Assembly (NCBI GenBank): GCA_018402455.1
Contig: JAGYIG010000007.1
Span: forward strand, 51,328 to 115,327
Direction: 5' to 3'
Origin: Opitutaceae bacterium
Lineage (GTDB): Bacteria > Verrucomicrobiota > Verrucomicrobiia > Opitutales > Opitutaceae
DNA length: 64,000 nucleotides
The position numbers and the translations under genes are program-made. Positions 34,126-43,990 of this stretch are shown piece by piece; positions within the stretch are counted from its first letter, which is position 1, and each line of letters begins with the position of its first letter. The notes below the pieces were generated by a model. That model was not told the origin of the DNA and searched no databases. It saw only the letters and a program-made list of their open reading frames with translations.

Positions 34126-34186
34126 GTTGGATTTCCCAGACGGCGCCGAACGGGTTGAGCCTGTAGGTGAAGGACGTTGGCCAGGT

Positions 34187-34219
34187 AGGGGCTTCGCTCG
34201 ACATAGCCCGGTTTCATCC
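34187..34219 (+). repeat. Solo relative of the 38-kb array unit
   Basis: AGGGGCTTCGCTCGAC followed by ATAGCCCGGTTTCATCC closely resembles the start of the array unit at 38327 (AGGGGCTTCGCTTGAC, then GAAGCCTGTTTCAGCC). The inverted arms are degraded here. It lies between convergent genes. Confidence 0.45.
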
Positions 34220-36924: not shown

Positions 36925-38190
36925 ATGAATGATTCGCGCTCCCCCCGTCCGCCCCGCGCCATCGTGGTGCCCGTTTCGTGGCGAGCGTTTGGACTTATCG
37001 GCCTGATTTGGGCGATGCCGTGGCTGGTATTTTTCTGGGGCAGCCGTCCGCCGGCTGATCCGTCTCCCGTCGTCCCCGCTGAGCCGAAGGCCGCTCCCCC
37101 CGCCCCCGTCGATTCGCAATCGGGACCTTGGGGCACGCTGGAGACCACCACGGTGGTGATCGAACCGCCGGACGATCTGCTGTCACTCGATGCCTCGCCC
37201 GTGACCCACAGTGTCTGGCGTTTCGTAAACCACGACCGCCAGCAGCTCAGCGAACTCCTCGCCGCGGTCGACTTGAACCCGACCGCGGCTGCCTTCCTGG
37301 GAGACGTAAGCAAGTGGACCTTCGCCCCGAGGTGGATTGAGCTGCGCGTGCCGAAAAACGTGGTGCTGGAGCTGTCGCCCGAGACCCGTCGATCGCTGTA
37401 TCGCGTGATGGCGGGCTACAGTGAAAACACCCAACACTTTGCCCCGTTCAGTTTTCGGGCGGAGACGACGGCCGAGTGGTTTGGCGAATCCGACCTGACG
37501 CCCGAAACCATCGCCCTTGTCGAACCCTTGCTCTACCGTCGTGGCGAGTCCCTCCTGTTTTCCGATTTACCTCTCATTTTGTCCGACGTGAGACCGGCGC
37601 AACAGCGTTTGGAACTACTGCGGGCACTGTCCCGCTCCAGCACGCAATTGGTCAAGCTCCGCATCACCCCCGACAGTGACATCAAAGCCATCGCCGCCTA
37701 TTGGTCACCGGGGCAACGCAAGCGGGACATCGAACCCCTGTTGCGGTCCCTGCCCCTGACGGAAGCGGGAGTCACGATTGATGTCATTCATCTGCTGCCG
37801 CGACTCGCCCGGCGTCTGCTTTACACGTTCCCTGCGCCGGCCAAACCGGGAGAGAGCTTGTTTCGGGACTGCCACTGGACGTCATTGAATTTCCACAAGG
37901 ACGAGATCGACGACAGCTTTGCGGACCTCGACTTGGTGCGGGAGGCCTATCAGCGCGATTTCCGCGAAGTGGCCGGCGAACCGCAGTTCGGCGATATCAT
38001 CATCTTCGTCCGCCAAGACGGAACCGCCCTGCACGCCTGCATCTATGTGGCTGGCGACATCGTGTTCACCAAAAATGGAGTCGGTGCTTCTTCACCTTGG
38101 ATTCTGATGAAGATGCCGCATTTGCAGGAACGCTATCCGGCCGATATCCCGCTCGAAATCATGGTGCGACGGCCGCGGACCGCGCCCTAG
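36925..38190 (+). CDS. Membrane-anchored protein with NlpC/P60-like C-terminal motif
   Basis: A 421-aa protein. A short cytoplasmic N-terminus and one membrane segment (about 20-38) are followed by a Pro/Ala-rich linker (41-68), so most of it is periplasmic. The middle (about 90-300) matches nothing recognised. Near the C-terminus, FRDCHWTSLNF (Cys316), PQFGDIIIFVRQDG and LHACIYVAGDIVFTKNG (His370) follow the order of NlpC/P60 cysteine peptidases: Cys, GD..F, then His in a glycine-flanked strand. Peptidoglycan hydrolysis is a guess. The ATG at 36925 begins the clean signal-anchor. Confidence 0.65.
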   Translation: MNDSRSPRPPRAIVVPVSWRAFGLIGLIWAMPWLVFFWGSRPPADPSPVVPAEPKAAPPAPVDSQSGPWGTLETTTVVIEPPDDLLSLDASPVTHSVWRFVNHDRQQLSELLAAVDLNPTAAAFLGDVSKWTFAPRWIELRVPKNVVLELSPETRRSLYRVMAGYSENTQHFAPFSFRAETTAEWFGESDLTPETIALVEPLLYRRGESLLFSDLPLILSDVRPAQQRLELLRALSRSSTQLVKLRITPDSDIKAIAAYWSPGQRKRDIEPLLRSLPLTEAGVTIDVIHLLPRLARRLLYTFPAPAKPGESLFRDCHWTSLNFHKDEIDDSFADLDLVREAYQRDFREVAGEPQFGDIIIFVRQDGTALHACIYVAGDIVFTKNGVGASSPWILMKMPHLQERYPADIPLEIMVRRPRTAP

Positions 38191-38221
38191 GCGGGCGGAG
38201 AATAAACAGAGCAGGCGAAAT

Positions 38222-38820
38222 GGCTTTGCTTGACGAAGCCCGTTTCAGCCCTGTCCGACACTCCCACCGCAACGGGCGGCGTGCGGCGCCGCCCTACACC
38301 TCCGCCGCAGCTCGGCACGCCGGAGGGGCTTCGCTTGACGAAGCCTGTTTCAGCCTGTCCGGCCCACTCCGCCGCAACGGGCGGCGTCAAGCACCGCCCC
38401 TACCCACGCCACCGCAGCTCGGCACGCCATAGGGGCTTCGCTTGACGAAGCCTGTTTCAGCCTGTCCGGCCCACCGCCGCAACGGGCGGCGTCAAGCGCC
38501 GCCCTACCCATACGCAGCTCGGCACGCCGTAGGGCAGGTATGTAACCGGCCCGTTGGCCTGTCCGGCCCACTCCGCCGCAGCGGGCGGCGTCAAGCACCG
38601 CTACCGCACGCAGCTCGACACGCCGTAGGGGCGGGGCTTCACTTTACGAAGCCCGTTTCAGTCTGTCCGGCCCACTCCACCGCAACGGGCGGCGTCAAGC
38701 ATCGCCCCTACCCACGCAACCGCAGCTCGGCACACCGGAGGGGCTTCGCTTGACGAAGCCTGTTTCAGTCTGTCCGGCCCACTCCACCGCAACGGGCGGC
38801 GTCAAGCATCGCCCCTACCC
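38222..38820 (+). repeat. Six-unit tandem array of palindromic ~105-bp repeats
   Basis: Units begin near 38222, 38327, 38434, 38537 (degenerate), 38635 and 38742. Each carries two stem-loops: GGCTTCG-CTTGA-CGAAGCC, and GGGCGGCG-loop-CGCCGCCC, with loops TGCGG or TCAAG. GTTTCAGCCTGTCCGGCCCAC and CGCAGCTCGGCACGCC lie in between. In the first unit the loop is changed while both arms are kept. Frames in all phases give repetitive peptides such as TKPVSACPAH, an artefact of the repeats. No gene is supported between 38191 and 38933. Confidence 0.9.
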
Positions 38821-38865
38821 ACGCAACCGCCGGTGGGGCCGCCGAGACCGAGGACGCAGACAGTG

Positions 38866-38911
38866 GGCCATCAGCCTGAAACGGCGGTCTCGGCGAGACG
38901 CGCCCTACCTT
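38866..38911 (+). repeat. REP-like intergenic element, copy 2
   Basis: This is the second copy of the element at 3878-3920, with an intact palindrome GTCTC-GGC-GAGAC followed by GCGCCCTACCT. It closes the 38-kb repeat region, 23 bases before the priA stop. Confidence 0.6.
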
Positions 38912-38933: not shown

Positions 38934-41174
38934 CTACCCGAGATTCACGGGGTCCACGTCCAGCACCTGAATCATGTCGTCGGGCCAAGCGAACGCGTTG
39001 CGCAGTTGGTTGAGTTCACCAATCACCCGCGTGACCCCGGAGGTGAAATACCAAACCTGATACCGGTAATGATCCTTCACCTTTTCGATGGGTGAAGGAG
39101 CGGGACCGCGCACTTCGATCCGGTCGCCAAATACGGCTTCGACTTTCCGCGCCCATTGCTCGGCGAAGAAGGCCAGTTTCTCCGGGTTTGGTCCGCGAAA
39201 CTGGTGGTGAATGAGGTGCCGATAAGGCGGGTAACGAAAGTCTCGGCGCGACTTTAGTTCGGCGGCCGCGAAACCGTCGAAATCGGCTTGGCGGGAAAAC
39301 TGGATCGCCTCGGCCTGCGGGGTGAAGGTCTGCACAACCACGACGCCGGAGCGGTCGCCCCGCCCCGCCCGACCCGCCACTTGCACCAGGAGTTGAAACG
39401 TGCGCTCATGGGCCCGGAAGTCCGGCATGTGCATTGAGAGGTCGGCGTCGACCAAACCCACCAAGGTCACGTTGGGGAAATCAAGTCCCTTGCCGATCAT
39501 CTGGGTGCCCACGAGCACATCGATCTTGCCGGCGCGAAACTCGCTGAGCACCTGCCGGAACCGGTTTTTTTTGGACATGGTGTCGGCATCCATCCGTTCG
39601 ATCCGCGCCCGGGGGAGCACTCGCCGCACCGCCTCTTCGACCCGTTGGGTGCCGGTGCCTTTCCAGCGAATGTCCGGTGCTTCACATTTGGGACAACGCA
39701 CGGGGGCCGTCCGCTCGTGGCCGCACAGGTGGCACCGCAGCGACTCATCGGTGCGATGGTAGGTCATCGTGATACTGCAATGCGGGCATTCCTCCACGTG
39801 ACCACAGCTGCGGCACAGCATGGAGGAGGAGTAACCCCGCCGATTGAGGAACAGGATGGTCTGTTCGCGTTTCTCGAAACGGTCCCGCATCTCTCCAACC
39901 AATTTTTGGGACAGGGTGGTCAATCCGCGGGCGCGCATGATCTCGACCCGCATGTCCACGACATCGATGAACGGAAGTTGGCGGTCGTCGATGCGCTGAC
40001 GCATGTGGAGGTGTTGGTAGCGGCCGGCCTGCGCGTTGGCGTAGCTTTCCAGCGAAGGCGTGGCCGACCCCAGCAGACAATGCGCGTGGTTGAGTTTGGC
40101 GCGCATCACCGCCACGTCCCGGCCGTGGTAGCGCGGGGTTTCATCCTGTTTGTAGGCCGGCTCGTGTTCCTCATCGACCACCACCAGGCGCAAGTTTTGC
40201 ACCGGGGCAAAGATGGCGGAACGCGCCCCCACCACGATGCGGGCCGCGCCCGTGGCCAGTTCATGCCAGCCATCGACCCGTTCGCCCTCACTCAAATGAC
40301 TGTGCCACACCACCGCGGCGTGGTCCGGCGCGATGGCTTCCAAGCGGCTGCGCAGACGGGCCACGGTCTGCGGGGTCAAAGCCACTTCGGGCACCAGAAA
40401 CACCACTCCGCCGCCCCCATCCAACGCCTCCTGAATGGCGCGCAGATAAACTTCCGTTTTGCCGGAACCCGTCACGCCCTGCAACAGCGTGACGCCAAAT
40501 TCGCGCCGTTGCACCGCGGTTTTGATCTCGGCAAAAACGGCCGCCTGCTCGGCATTGAGTTCGTGAGGCAGTGCCGCCACCAATTCACCCGCGGCGAAGT
40601 CATCCGCATACGCGACGCGCCGGACCCGCTGACTCACCTCGCGCACCGCTCCCCGCTTGATCAGGGACACCGCCGAAGACGGTCCGACCCCCAGTCGCTT
40701 CAGCACCAATCCTTTCGGCACGGGCTGAAATTGGCTCAGGAGAAACTCGTAAAGCTTGGCCTGCTGCGGGGCTCGTTTGCGCAGCGCCGCGAGGTCCGGT
40801 TCGCTCAGGCGATCGGCGACCGCCAGCAGTTTCTCCGACTTCAGGCCGGCGGCCCGACGGACCGCGGTGGGCAGCATGGTTTCGATGATGCCATCCAGCG
40901 GGGCGGCATAATAAACCGCCATCCACTTGGCCAAAGCCAACAGATCGGGCGGAAGCGCCGTGAAATCATAGACCACCTCGGCCAGCTGTTTGAGCCGCTC
41001 CACCGGAAAGTCATCCGGGGCCCCTTCGACGCCGACGATGCCCAGGACGTAGCGGCGTCCGATGGGGATCCGCACCAGCGATCCCACCCCCACCTTGTCC
41101 GCATGCACCGCCGGCACCTTATAGTGCAGCAGTTTGTCGAAACCAGCCAGCGGATGGACACCTACGATCTTCAA
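38934..41174 (-). CDS. priA: Primosomal protein N' (replication restart helicase PriA)
   Basis: Superfamily 2 helicase that reloads the replisome at stalled forks. Motifs are LLQGVTGSGKTEVYLRA (Walker A), VVVDEEHEPAYKQDETPRYHGRD (motif II), LLGSATPSLES (III), FLNRRGYSSSMLC, and eight zinc-binding cysteines from CRSCGHVEECPHC to CPKCEAPD. VGTQMIGKGLDFPNVTLVG and VAGRAGRG complete the helicase core. A TTG at 41174 (KIVGVHPLAGFDKLLHYKVP) fits the family start and has AAAGG five bases upstream. An ATG at 41255 is in frame but leaves only 8 bases to the divergent fur start. The start is therefore uncertain. Confidence 0.95.
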   Translation of the reverse strand: MKIVGVHPLAGFDKLLHYKVPAVHADKVGVGSLVRIPIGRRYVLGIVGVEGAPDDFPVERLKQLAEVVYDFTALPPDLLALAKWMAVYYAAPLDGIIETMLPTAVRRAAGLKSEKLLAVADRLSEPDLAALRKRAPQQAKLYEFLLSQFQPVPKGLVLKRLGVGPSSAVSLIKRGAVREVSQRVRRVAYADDFAAGELVAALPHELNAEQAAVFAEIKTAVQRREFGVTLLQGVTGSGKTEVYLRAIQEALDGGGGVVFLVPEVALTPQTVARLRSRLEAIAPDHAAVVWHSHLSEGERVDGWHELATGAARIVVGARSAIFAPVQNLRLVVVDEEHEPAYKQDETPRYHGRDVAVMRAKLNHAHCLLGSATPSLESYANAQAGRYQHLHMRQRIDDRQLPFIDVVDMRVEIMRARGLTTLSQKLVGEMRDRFEKREQTILFLNRRGYSSSMLCRSCGHVEECPHCSITMTYHRTDESLRCHLCGHERTAPVRCPKCEAPDIRWKGTGTQRVEEAVRRVLPRARIERMDADTMSKKNRFRQVLSEFRAGKIDVLVGTQMIGKGLDFPNVTLVGLVDADLSMHMPDFRAHERTFQLLVQVAGRAGRGDRSGVVVVQTFTPQAEAIQFSRQADFDGFAAAELKSRRDFRYPPYRHLIHHQFRGPNPEKLAFFAEQWARKVEAVFGDRIEVRGPAPSPIEKVKDHYRYQVWYFTSGVTRVIGELNQLRNAFAWPDDMIQVLDVDPVNLG

Positions 41175-41263
41175 GCCGACCTTTGTGCAAGGCCGAAAGC
41201 CCGGGGGCAAGTGCGCCGACGAACGATTGACAGCACGAGCCTCGCCCGCCGACATTCGACAAC

Positions 41264-43138: not shown

Positions 43139-43240
43139 CGGCGGATTCCAAGGCCTGAAGAGGAGACCGCCATTGGTCGGCCTCTTGCTTGAACGGCGGC
43201 CAGGACTGGCTGGTCCGATGAGGACTCGGCGCTGCCACCA

Positions 43241-43376
43241 CTCCGCCGCTCCGGGCTCAACGAGCCCGGCTACAACCCACCCCCCGCATCATTTGCTGTA
43301 GCCGGGGTCGCTGACCCCGGTTCATCTGCCTCGGAGCCTGATCCACTCCGCCGCTCCGGGCTCGGCGAGCCCGGCT
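43241..43376 (+). repeat. Three REP palindromes upstream of the RAYT gene
   Basis: Each has 8-base arms and a 3-base loop: CCGGGCTC-AAC-GAGCCCGG (43251-43269), CCGGGGTC-GCT-GACCCCGG (43302-43320) and CCGGGCTC-GGC-GAGCCCGG (43356-43374). The first and third are preceded by CACTCCGCCGCT and followed by CTACAAC; the middle one is inverted, preceded by TGTAG. This forward-reverse-forward order is like bacterial BIMEs. The stretch 43139-43454 holds no other gene. Confidence 0.85.
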
Positions 43377-43454
43377 ACAACTCATCCGCTGAAACCATTA
43401 AAATTGCAGCCAGGACCGTTGACCTGGGTGGCACCGTCAGGTGGATTGGAACTG

Positions 43455-43919
43455 ATGGCCGAATCGCATCACCTTAAGCGGCTAGAGCGCGTATGGGTTG
43501 AGAACGCGGTTTATTTCGTGACGACTTGCGTTGATGGGCGACGAGGGATTCTCGCGGAGGCTTTCGTCCACGAAATCATCATCAATGAGTTTCACAATCT
43601 GAGGGACAAACACGGCTGGGCCATCGGTCGATTCGTTATCATGCCAGATCATGTGCATTTTTTTACCAAACCGATTCCGGGACATGCAAAGTCCTTGAGC
43701 AAGGCCATGGGGCACTGGAAACAATGGACGGCTAAACGCATTTTGAAAACAACCGGTGAGCGCGCGCCCCTGTGGCAGTCCGGGTTCTTCGATCACGTCG
43801 TGAGGTCAGGTGAATCACGTGCGGAAAAATGGCGCTATATCGTTGAGAATCCCGTTCGCGCGGGGTTGGTCGAGAGCGCCCAAGACTGGCCCTTCGCGGG
43901 CCACGTTGATTTTAGGTAA
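43455..43919 (+). CDS. REP-associated tyrosine transposase (RAYT), Y1_Tnp family
   Basis: A 154-aa IS200/IS605-like single-strand transposase. HLKRLERVWVENAVYFVTTC starts the domain, IMPDHVHFF is the HUH metal-binding motif, and EKWRYIVENPVRAG includes the candidate nucleophilic Tyr. RAYTs process REP palindromes rather than mobilise a classical IS. REP-type palindromes flank it on both sides. The ATG at 43455 fits the family; 17 codons upstream are open but not family-like. The gene appears intact. Confidence 0.9.
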   Translation: MAESHHLKRLERVWVENAVYFVTTCVDGRRGILAEAFVHEIIINEFHNLRDKHGWAIGRFVIMPDHVHFFTKPIPGHAKSLSKAMGHWKQWTAKRILKTTGERAPLWQSGFFDHVVRSGESRAEKWRYIVENPVRAGLVESAQDWPFAGHVDFR

Positions 43920-43954
43920 GAGGGAGAGCTGTCTGGGCGCGTTTAAGTCCTCCA

Positions 43955-43990
43955 CTCCACCGGACCGGGGTCAACGACCCCGGCTTCAGC
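43955..43990 (+). repeat. REP palindrome downstream of the RAYT gene
   Basis: CCGGGGTC-AAC-GACCCCGG (43965-43983) sits 46 bases after the RAYT stop, preceded by CACTCCACCGGA and followed by CTTCAGCCAC. Its architecture is the same as the upstream copies. It lies between convergent RAYT and M23 genes. Confidence 0.8.

Follow-up and report, generated by a model that had tools for sequence, protein, structure and literature searches.

RAYTs are HUH tyrosine transposases that act on single-stranded hairpins next to a tag. They have been described as flanked by inverted REPs (PMC2817692), and both REPINs and tandem REP arrays are known in Pseudomonas (PMC3116915). The REPs closest to those reported here belong to the GTAG superfamily. 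An article on this superfamily (PMC3733652) describes GTAG REPs, their HH dimers, heterodimers whose stems differ, and the tandem reiteration of dimers together with flanking DNA. According to the same article, Opitutus terrae, a Verrucomicrobium, is highly enriched in several GTAG REP families, and REPtrons can be lost with the REPs remaining (PMC3733652).

We analyzed a stretch of 64,000 nucleotides from an Opitutaceae bacterium (the window) and found a tandem array that is very probably a reiterated REP doublet of the GTAG superfamily (an HH heterodimer of the BIME/REPIN type), scattered by a RAYT, multiplied locally and now persisting as near-neutral debris. Tandem Repeats Finder placed the strongest tandem array of the window at 38222–38830 (period 107, 5.8 copies, 80% matches, 9% indels, score 701). 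The other tandem array in the window scored only 59. Direct repeats and a unit alignment resulted in unit spacings of 96–112 bp. The six-copy tandem array described in an earlier, sequence-only reading of this DNA is therefore real, but its unit does not have the fixed length of ~105 bp given there. Units 2, 3, 5 and 6 are best preserved and mutually 85–92% identical, whereas units 1 and 4 are divergent. For the coordinates of all features see Table 1.

The array takes up most of a 743-bp gap between the end of a 421-residue open reading frame (38190, + strand) and the end of priA (38934, − strand), and is thus located between two convergent stop codons. The sequence-only reading had put it between an NlpC/P60-like gene and priA. 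The assignment of priA, predicted from its sequence, is solid. The NlpC/P60 label is weak, as the top Pfam match of this frame (E = 0.061, 13.7 bits) lies below the cut-off of 23.

Table 1. Features of the array and its surroundings (positions in the window).
Feature	Coordinates	Strand	Evidence
Whole tandem array, ~six REP-doublet units, period ~107 bp	38217..38840	.	Tandem Repeats Finder, direct repeats, unit alignment
REP-B unit 1, tag lost (GAAA)	38217..38259	+	edit-distance scan; R1 30.1 bits
REP-A unit 1, tag GTAG, loop changed	38259..38297	−	edit-distance scan; R1 17.5 bits
REP-B unit 2, tag GGAG	38322..38364	+	edit-distance scan; R1 37.4 bits
REP-A unit 2, tag GTAG	38364..38403	−	edit-distance scan; R1 41.7 bits
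REP-B unit 3, tag ATAG	38429..38471	+	edit-distance scan; R1 35.9 bits
REP-A unit 3, tag GTAG	38471..38507	−	edit-distance scan; R1 32.8 bits
Unit 4, REP-B replaced or destroyed	38526..38567	+	no R1 match; unit alignment
REP-A unit 4, 3 bp deleted in stem	38568..38604	−	edit-distance scan; R1 28.2 bits
REP-B unit 5	38630..38672	+	edit-distance scan; R1 29.4 bits
REP-A unit 5, tag GTAG	38672..38711	−	edit-distance scan; R1 39.4 bits
REP-B unit 6, tag GGAG	38737..38779	+	edit-distance scan; R1 37.4 bits
REP-A unit 6, tag GTAG	38779..38818	−	edit-distance scan; R1 39.4 bits
REP of a different, third family (GTAGGGCGcGTCTCGCCGAGACCGCCG..., GTAGGGCGCGTCTCGCCGAGACCGCCGTTTCAGGCTGATGG...), abutting the array	38880..38908 within 38837–38908	−	sequence; same REP beside broken RAYT on contig C36
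421-aa ORF, weakly NlpC/P60-like, convergent with priA	36925..38190	+	ORF list, Pfam
priA, primosomal helicase (predicted)	38934..41255	−	Pfam PriA domains
RAYT of another clade, intact, ~4.6 kb downstream of array	43404..43919	+	NF047646 117.4 bits; flanks
REPs of the window RAYT (GTAGCCGGGCTCnnnGAGCCCGG / GTAGCCGGGGTCnnnGACCCCGG)	43238–43273 (−), 43298–43320 (+), 43343–43378 (−); diverged copy 43952–43987 (−)		

Each unit is an inverted pair of facing REPs, termed REP-B and REP-A, with their tags pointing outward (an HH dimer) and a span of ~81 bp. Read from the tag, REP-B (+ strand) is GTAG-GGGCTTCG-CTTGA-CGAAGCCC, and REP-A (− strand) is GTAG-GGGCGGCG-CTTGA-CGCCGCCC, followed by GCTGCGGTGGAGTGG. 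A spacer of ~25 bp (CCCACGCCACCGCAGCTCGGCACGCC and variants) after each doublet fills out the period of ~107 bp; its sequence is also present before REP-B at other genomic loci. A covariance model of the hairpin (25 positions) recovered 11 of the 12 expected hairpins, six REP-A and five REP-B, with scores of 17.5–41.7 bits. The two stem-loops per unit noted earlier were thus confirmed except in unit 4, which is without a REP-B. The tags of REP-B are degenerate within the array (GGAG, ATAG, GAAA, GGCG), those of REP-A are GTAG, and the hairpin copies of unit 1 are degenerate. The stems had been called perfect palindromes, a description that does not hold for the REP-A copies of units 2, 5 and 6 with their mismatches or wobbles.

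The claim of preserved stems and changing loops turned out to be reversed. Loop and tag are constant, with CTTGA in 40 of 51 well-paired genomic copies, and two neighboring stem pairs vary with compensation: subfamilies A and B differ by GG/CC versus TT/AA at these positions. Among 25 distinct cores, 93% of the stem cells were paired compared to 83% in shuffles, and 15 cells were changed on both sides compared to 4.9 in shuffles, a number reached in none of 500 shuffles. Slid versions of the hairpin structure showed far poorer pairing for the same cores. These observations support selection on the hairpin across the family and imply nothing special for the array locus. There, shuffling a single unit worsens its fold only slightly (z about −1.5), a search for terminator-like and promoter-like sites yielded neither, and the array has no Rfam match. 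Neither the terminator and promoter search nor a comparison of same-genus sites provided evidence for a locally selected folded RNA. The earlier proposal of selection for the fold is supported for the hairpin family rather than for the array itself.

Several other identities were considered for the array and rejected. A CRISPR-like array is incompatible with units that are contiguous inverted hairpin pairs and with a spacer that is itself repeated. A known structured RNA was rejected on the Rfam result, and a Rho-independent terminator or promoter on the search for such sites. A coding repeat was dismissed because the array is covered by short open reading frames that are spread over several frames.

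A genome-wide search for the unit, suggested in the sequence-only reading, revealed a dispersed family. With the array sequence as query, BLAST found 49 matching places in the host genome, and the covariance model gave 82 matches at E<=1, of which 67 had E<0.01. An edit-distance scan of the stretches around these matches yielded 79 copies, 56 of them A and 23 of them B, compared to 4 hits in a reversed-sequence control; 59 of the 79 start with GTAG. The genome holds about 67–80 copies of the element, mostly intergenic, and only one of 36 loci was called inside an open reading frame. Most REP-B copies (20 of 23) are paired head-to-head with a REP-A in doublets that span 76–87 bp, and many REP-A copies stand alone. 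Contigs C4, C8 and C10 hold smaller clusters of two or three units. Where an element locus was flanked by two called genes that do not overlap, these genes were convergent in 12 of 25 cases, whereas 8 of the 44 gene pairs of the window are convergent (Fisher p = 0.013). This comparison is only indicative, as it relies on a simple codon-usage gene caller. Within the window, a lone, diverged REP-B-like copy (34185–34209, 22.4 bits) lies downstream of a CvfB-like gene.

The assembly consists of 100 contigs and is 91% complete. Contigs with an end at or near element copies include C15, C40, C51, C53, C55 and C60 among others, and the assembly appears to be broken by the repeat. Copy numbers, both within the array and genome-wide, are therefore approximate. 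Given these contig ends and a longest exact repeat of 69 nt inside the array, the array copy number may be misassembled.

In a genome of the same genus (G003) the same convergent gene pair is separated by 11 bp between the stop codons, compared to 743 bp here, which makes it a clean orthologous, near-empty site. In two other related genomes (loci L205 and L212), priA is followed downstream by REPs of other families, so this site seems permissive to REP landing. Searched with a 209-bp unit, the same-genus genomes yielded a single, short match at E<=1e-5, in G005. Exact copies of 25-mers were found in an Opitutaceae MAG, a Lacunisphaera MAG and a groundwater Verrucomicrobia MAG in a search of 84,980 named genomes. 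Each of these three contains 53–143 model matches, and there are several RAYT genes among them.

A link to RAYTs was observed in related Opitutaceae-type MAGs. At three loci (L155, L156 and L160) a RAYT has model-matching REPs on both sides, with scores of 31–42 bits. These REPs have the same design as those of the array, namely GTAG, GGGC..., a CTTGA or CTTGT loop and ...GCCC. No RAYT of the clade was found in the 91%-complete host assembly. The RAYTs that the host genome does contain, two above the NCBIfam cut-off and one broken copy, are all flanked by other REPs. The array family is therefore without an evident partner RAYT in this assembly; a partner may have been lost or may lie in the part of the genome that the assembly lacks. 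REPINs and BIMEs usually have a cognate RAYT in their own genome, but this is no strict requirement.

The intact RAYT of the window has its own flanking REPs, GTAGCCGGGsTCnnnGAsCCCGG, unlike those of the array, and the region 43238–43987 constitutes a second, complete REPtron in the window. A homologue with 57% identity (L125, genome G010) has the same flanking REPs, and the window RAYT is only ~28% identical to RAYTs flanked by CTTGA-type REPs. As a cognate of the array it was ruled out, because the REPs flanking it and its homologue are of another type. Further transposase genes were observed elsewhere. The third REP family that abuts the array (GTAGGGCGCGTCTCGCCGAGACCGCCGTTTCAGGCTGATGG...) is also present on contig C36 (11500–15500, L154), where it flanks a RAYT that contains internal stops. 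On contig C29 (8700–11500, L067) a RAYT is adjoined by near-perfect AAGCACGGCGC/GTGCCGTGCTT inverted repeats, a further REP type. Larger Y1 transposase-like proteins of ~330 residues occur in several copies (L070, L071, L073 and L068, on C46, C51, C6 and C68 at 35.6 kb); their Y1-model match is split in two, and a hairpin scan beside these genes found no GTAG-tagged hairpins.

Based on these results we propose the following history of the array. A RAYT acting on single-stranded hairpins would have scattered the doublets through the genome, as expected from established knowledge of these enzymes. Since no RAYT of the clade with these REPs was found in the assembly, we infer this mobilization for the host strain. 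One doublet with its ~25-bp spacer would then have landed in the convergent gap next to priA, where the 107-bp unit was probably multiplied through slippage or unequal recombination. The loss of tags and of one hairpin suggests that the array is now decaying. The REP-type copying process suggested by the sequence-only reading is borne out by the tag, the hairpin, the inverted pairing, the dispersal, the intergenic bias and the RAYTs with REPs of the same kind in relatives. At the priA locus, the array most likely persists as near-neutral debris of a mobile element that is tolerated because it lies between gene ends. Any influence on supercoiling or on mRNA 3' ends, though possible, is unsupported and would be a by-product.

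A functional role of the array itself, either as a locally selected structured RNA or as a bidirectional 3'-end processing or termination element for the convergent gene pair, would agree with its position exactly between two stop codons, with the compensated changes in the hairpin stems and with the location of REPs mostly downstream of genes, as reported in PMC3733652. The same gene pair in G003, however, has only the 11-bp spacer, the array showed neither a terminator-like site nor an Rfam match, and the compensated changes divide the genome-wide subfamilies A and B rather than alleles at the array locus. We consider such a role very unlikely. The head-to-tail units, with neighbors up to 92% identical, could also have resulted from a simple local tandem duplication, i.e. 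a minisatellite, with no mobile-element background. The about 67–80 copies in the genome, many of them lone REP-A or single doublets, and the 53–143 matches in each of the three other MAGs render this reading extremely improbable.

The array could also be an orphan REP set that is now mobilized in trans by the non-cognate RAYT at 43404–43919. That RAYT is intact, and a 3' box, GCGGCGGAGTGG, is common to REP-A and one of the REPs flanking it and is enriched in the genome (62 sites versus 14 in the control). Its own REPs differ from those of the array in stem and loop, though, and their recurrence at the G010 homologue indicates a conserved, different specificity. Its identity to RAYTs with CTTGA-type REPs is also low. 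We regard mobilization in trans as unlikely. The more specific idea that orphan doublets, after loss of their own RAYT, were kept moving or were tandemly amplified by a RAYT of different specificity, with the shared GCGGCGGAGTGG box as the recognition element, has a very low probability in our view.

The interpretation as a RAYT-scattered and locally multiplied doublet places one more REP/REPIN family, and RAYT genes that have flanking REPs of the same kind, in Opitutaceae-type Verrucomicrobia. It also reveals a natural contrast within one bacterial family between two RAYT specificity classes, one with loop-conserved CTTGA REPs and the other with GTAGCCGGG REPs. In practical terms, it is a warning that these REP repeats cause contig breaks in assemblies of such genomes.

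With the GTAG superfamily (Di Nocera et al. 2013, PMC3733652), the array family shares the unpaired GTAG tag at one end, the 8-bp stem and the short loop, HH and TT dimers, heterodimers with different stems, tandem reiteration with flanking DNA, the intergenic location and the presence of several families per genome. In the host genome we found the corresponding short stem-loop with a GTAG-type tag in many dispersed, mainly intergenic copies. As in REPINs (Bertels and Rainey 2011, PMC3116915), the repeated unit is an inverted REP pair with the intervening sequence. Its span of ~81 bp compares to doublet spacings of 71 and 110 bp in P. fluorescens SBW25, which also contains tandem REP arrays (PMC3116915). 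In contrast to REPINs, many REP-A copies are single here and the two arms belong to different subtypes (A and B). The inverted REPs stand at a preferred spacing, and within the lineage a REP is present on both sides of a RAYT, in keeping with REPINs and BIMEs. The BIME-2 elements of enterobacteria (PMC2817692) likewise consist of several tandem units of two oppositely oriented REPs, but the REP sequence and the phylum are different here. Compared by description rather than by consensus sequence with the 24 families of PMC3733652, the array family appears to be unlisted but may coincide with one of them, for example one from O. terrae; it represents a known REP kind and not a new system.
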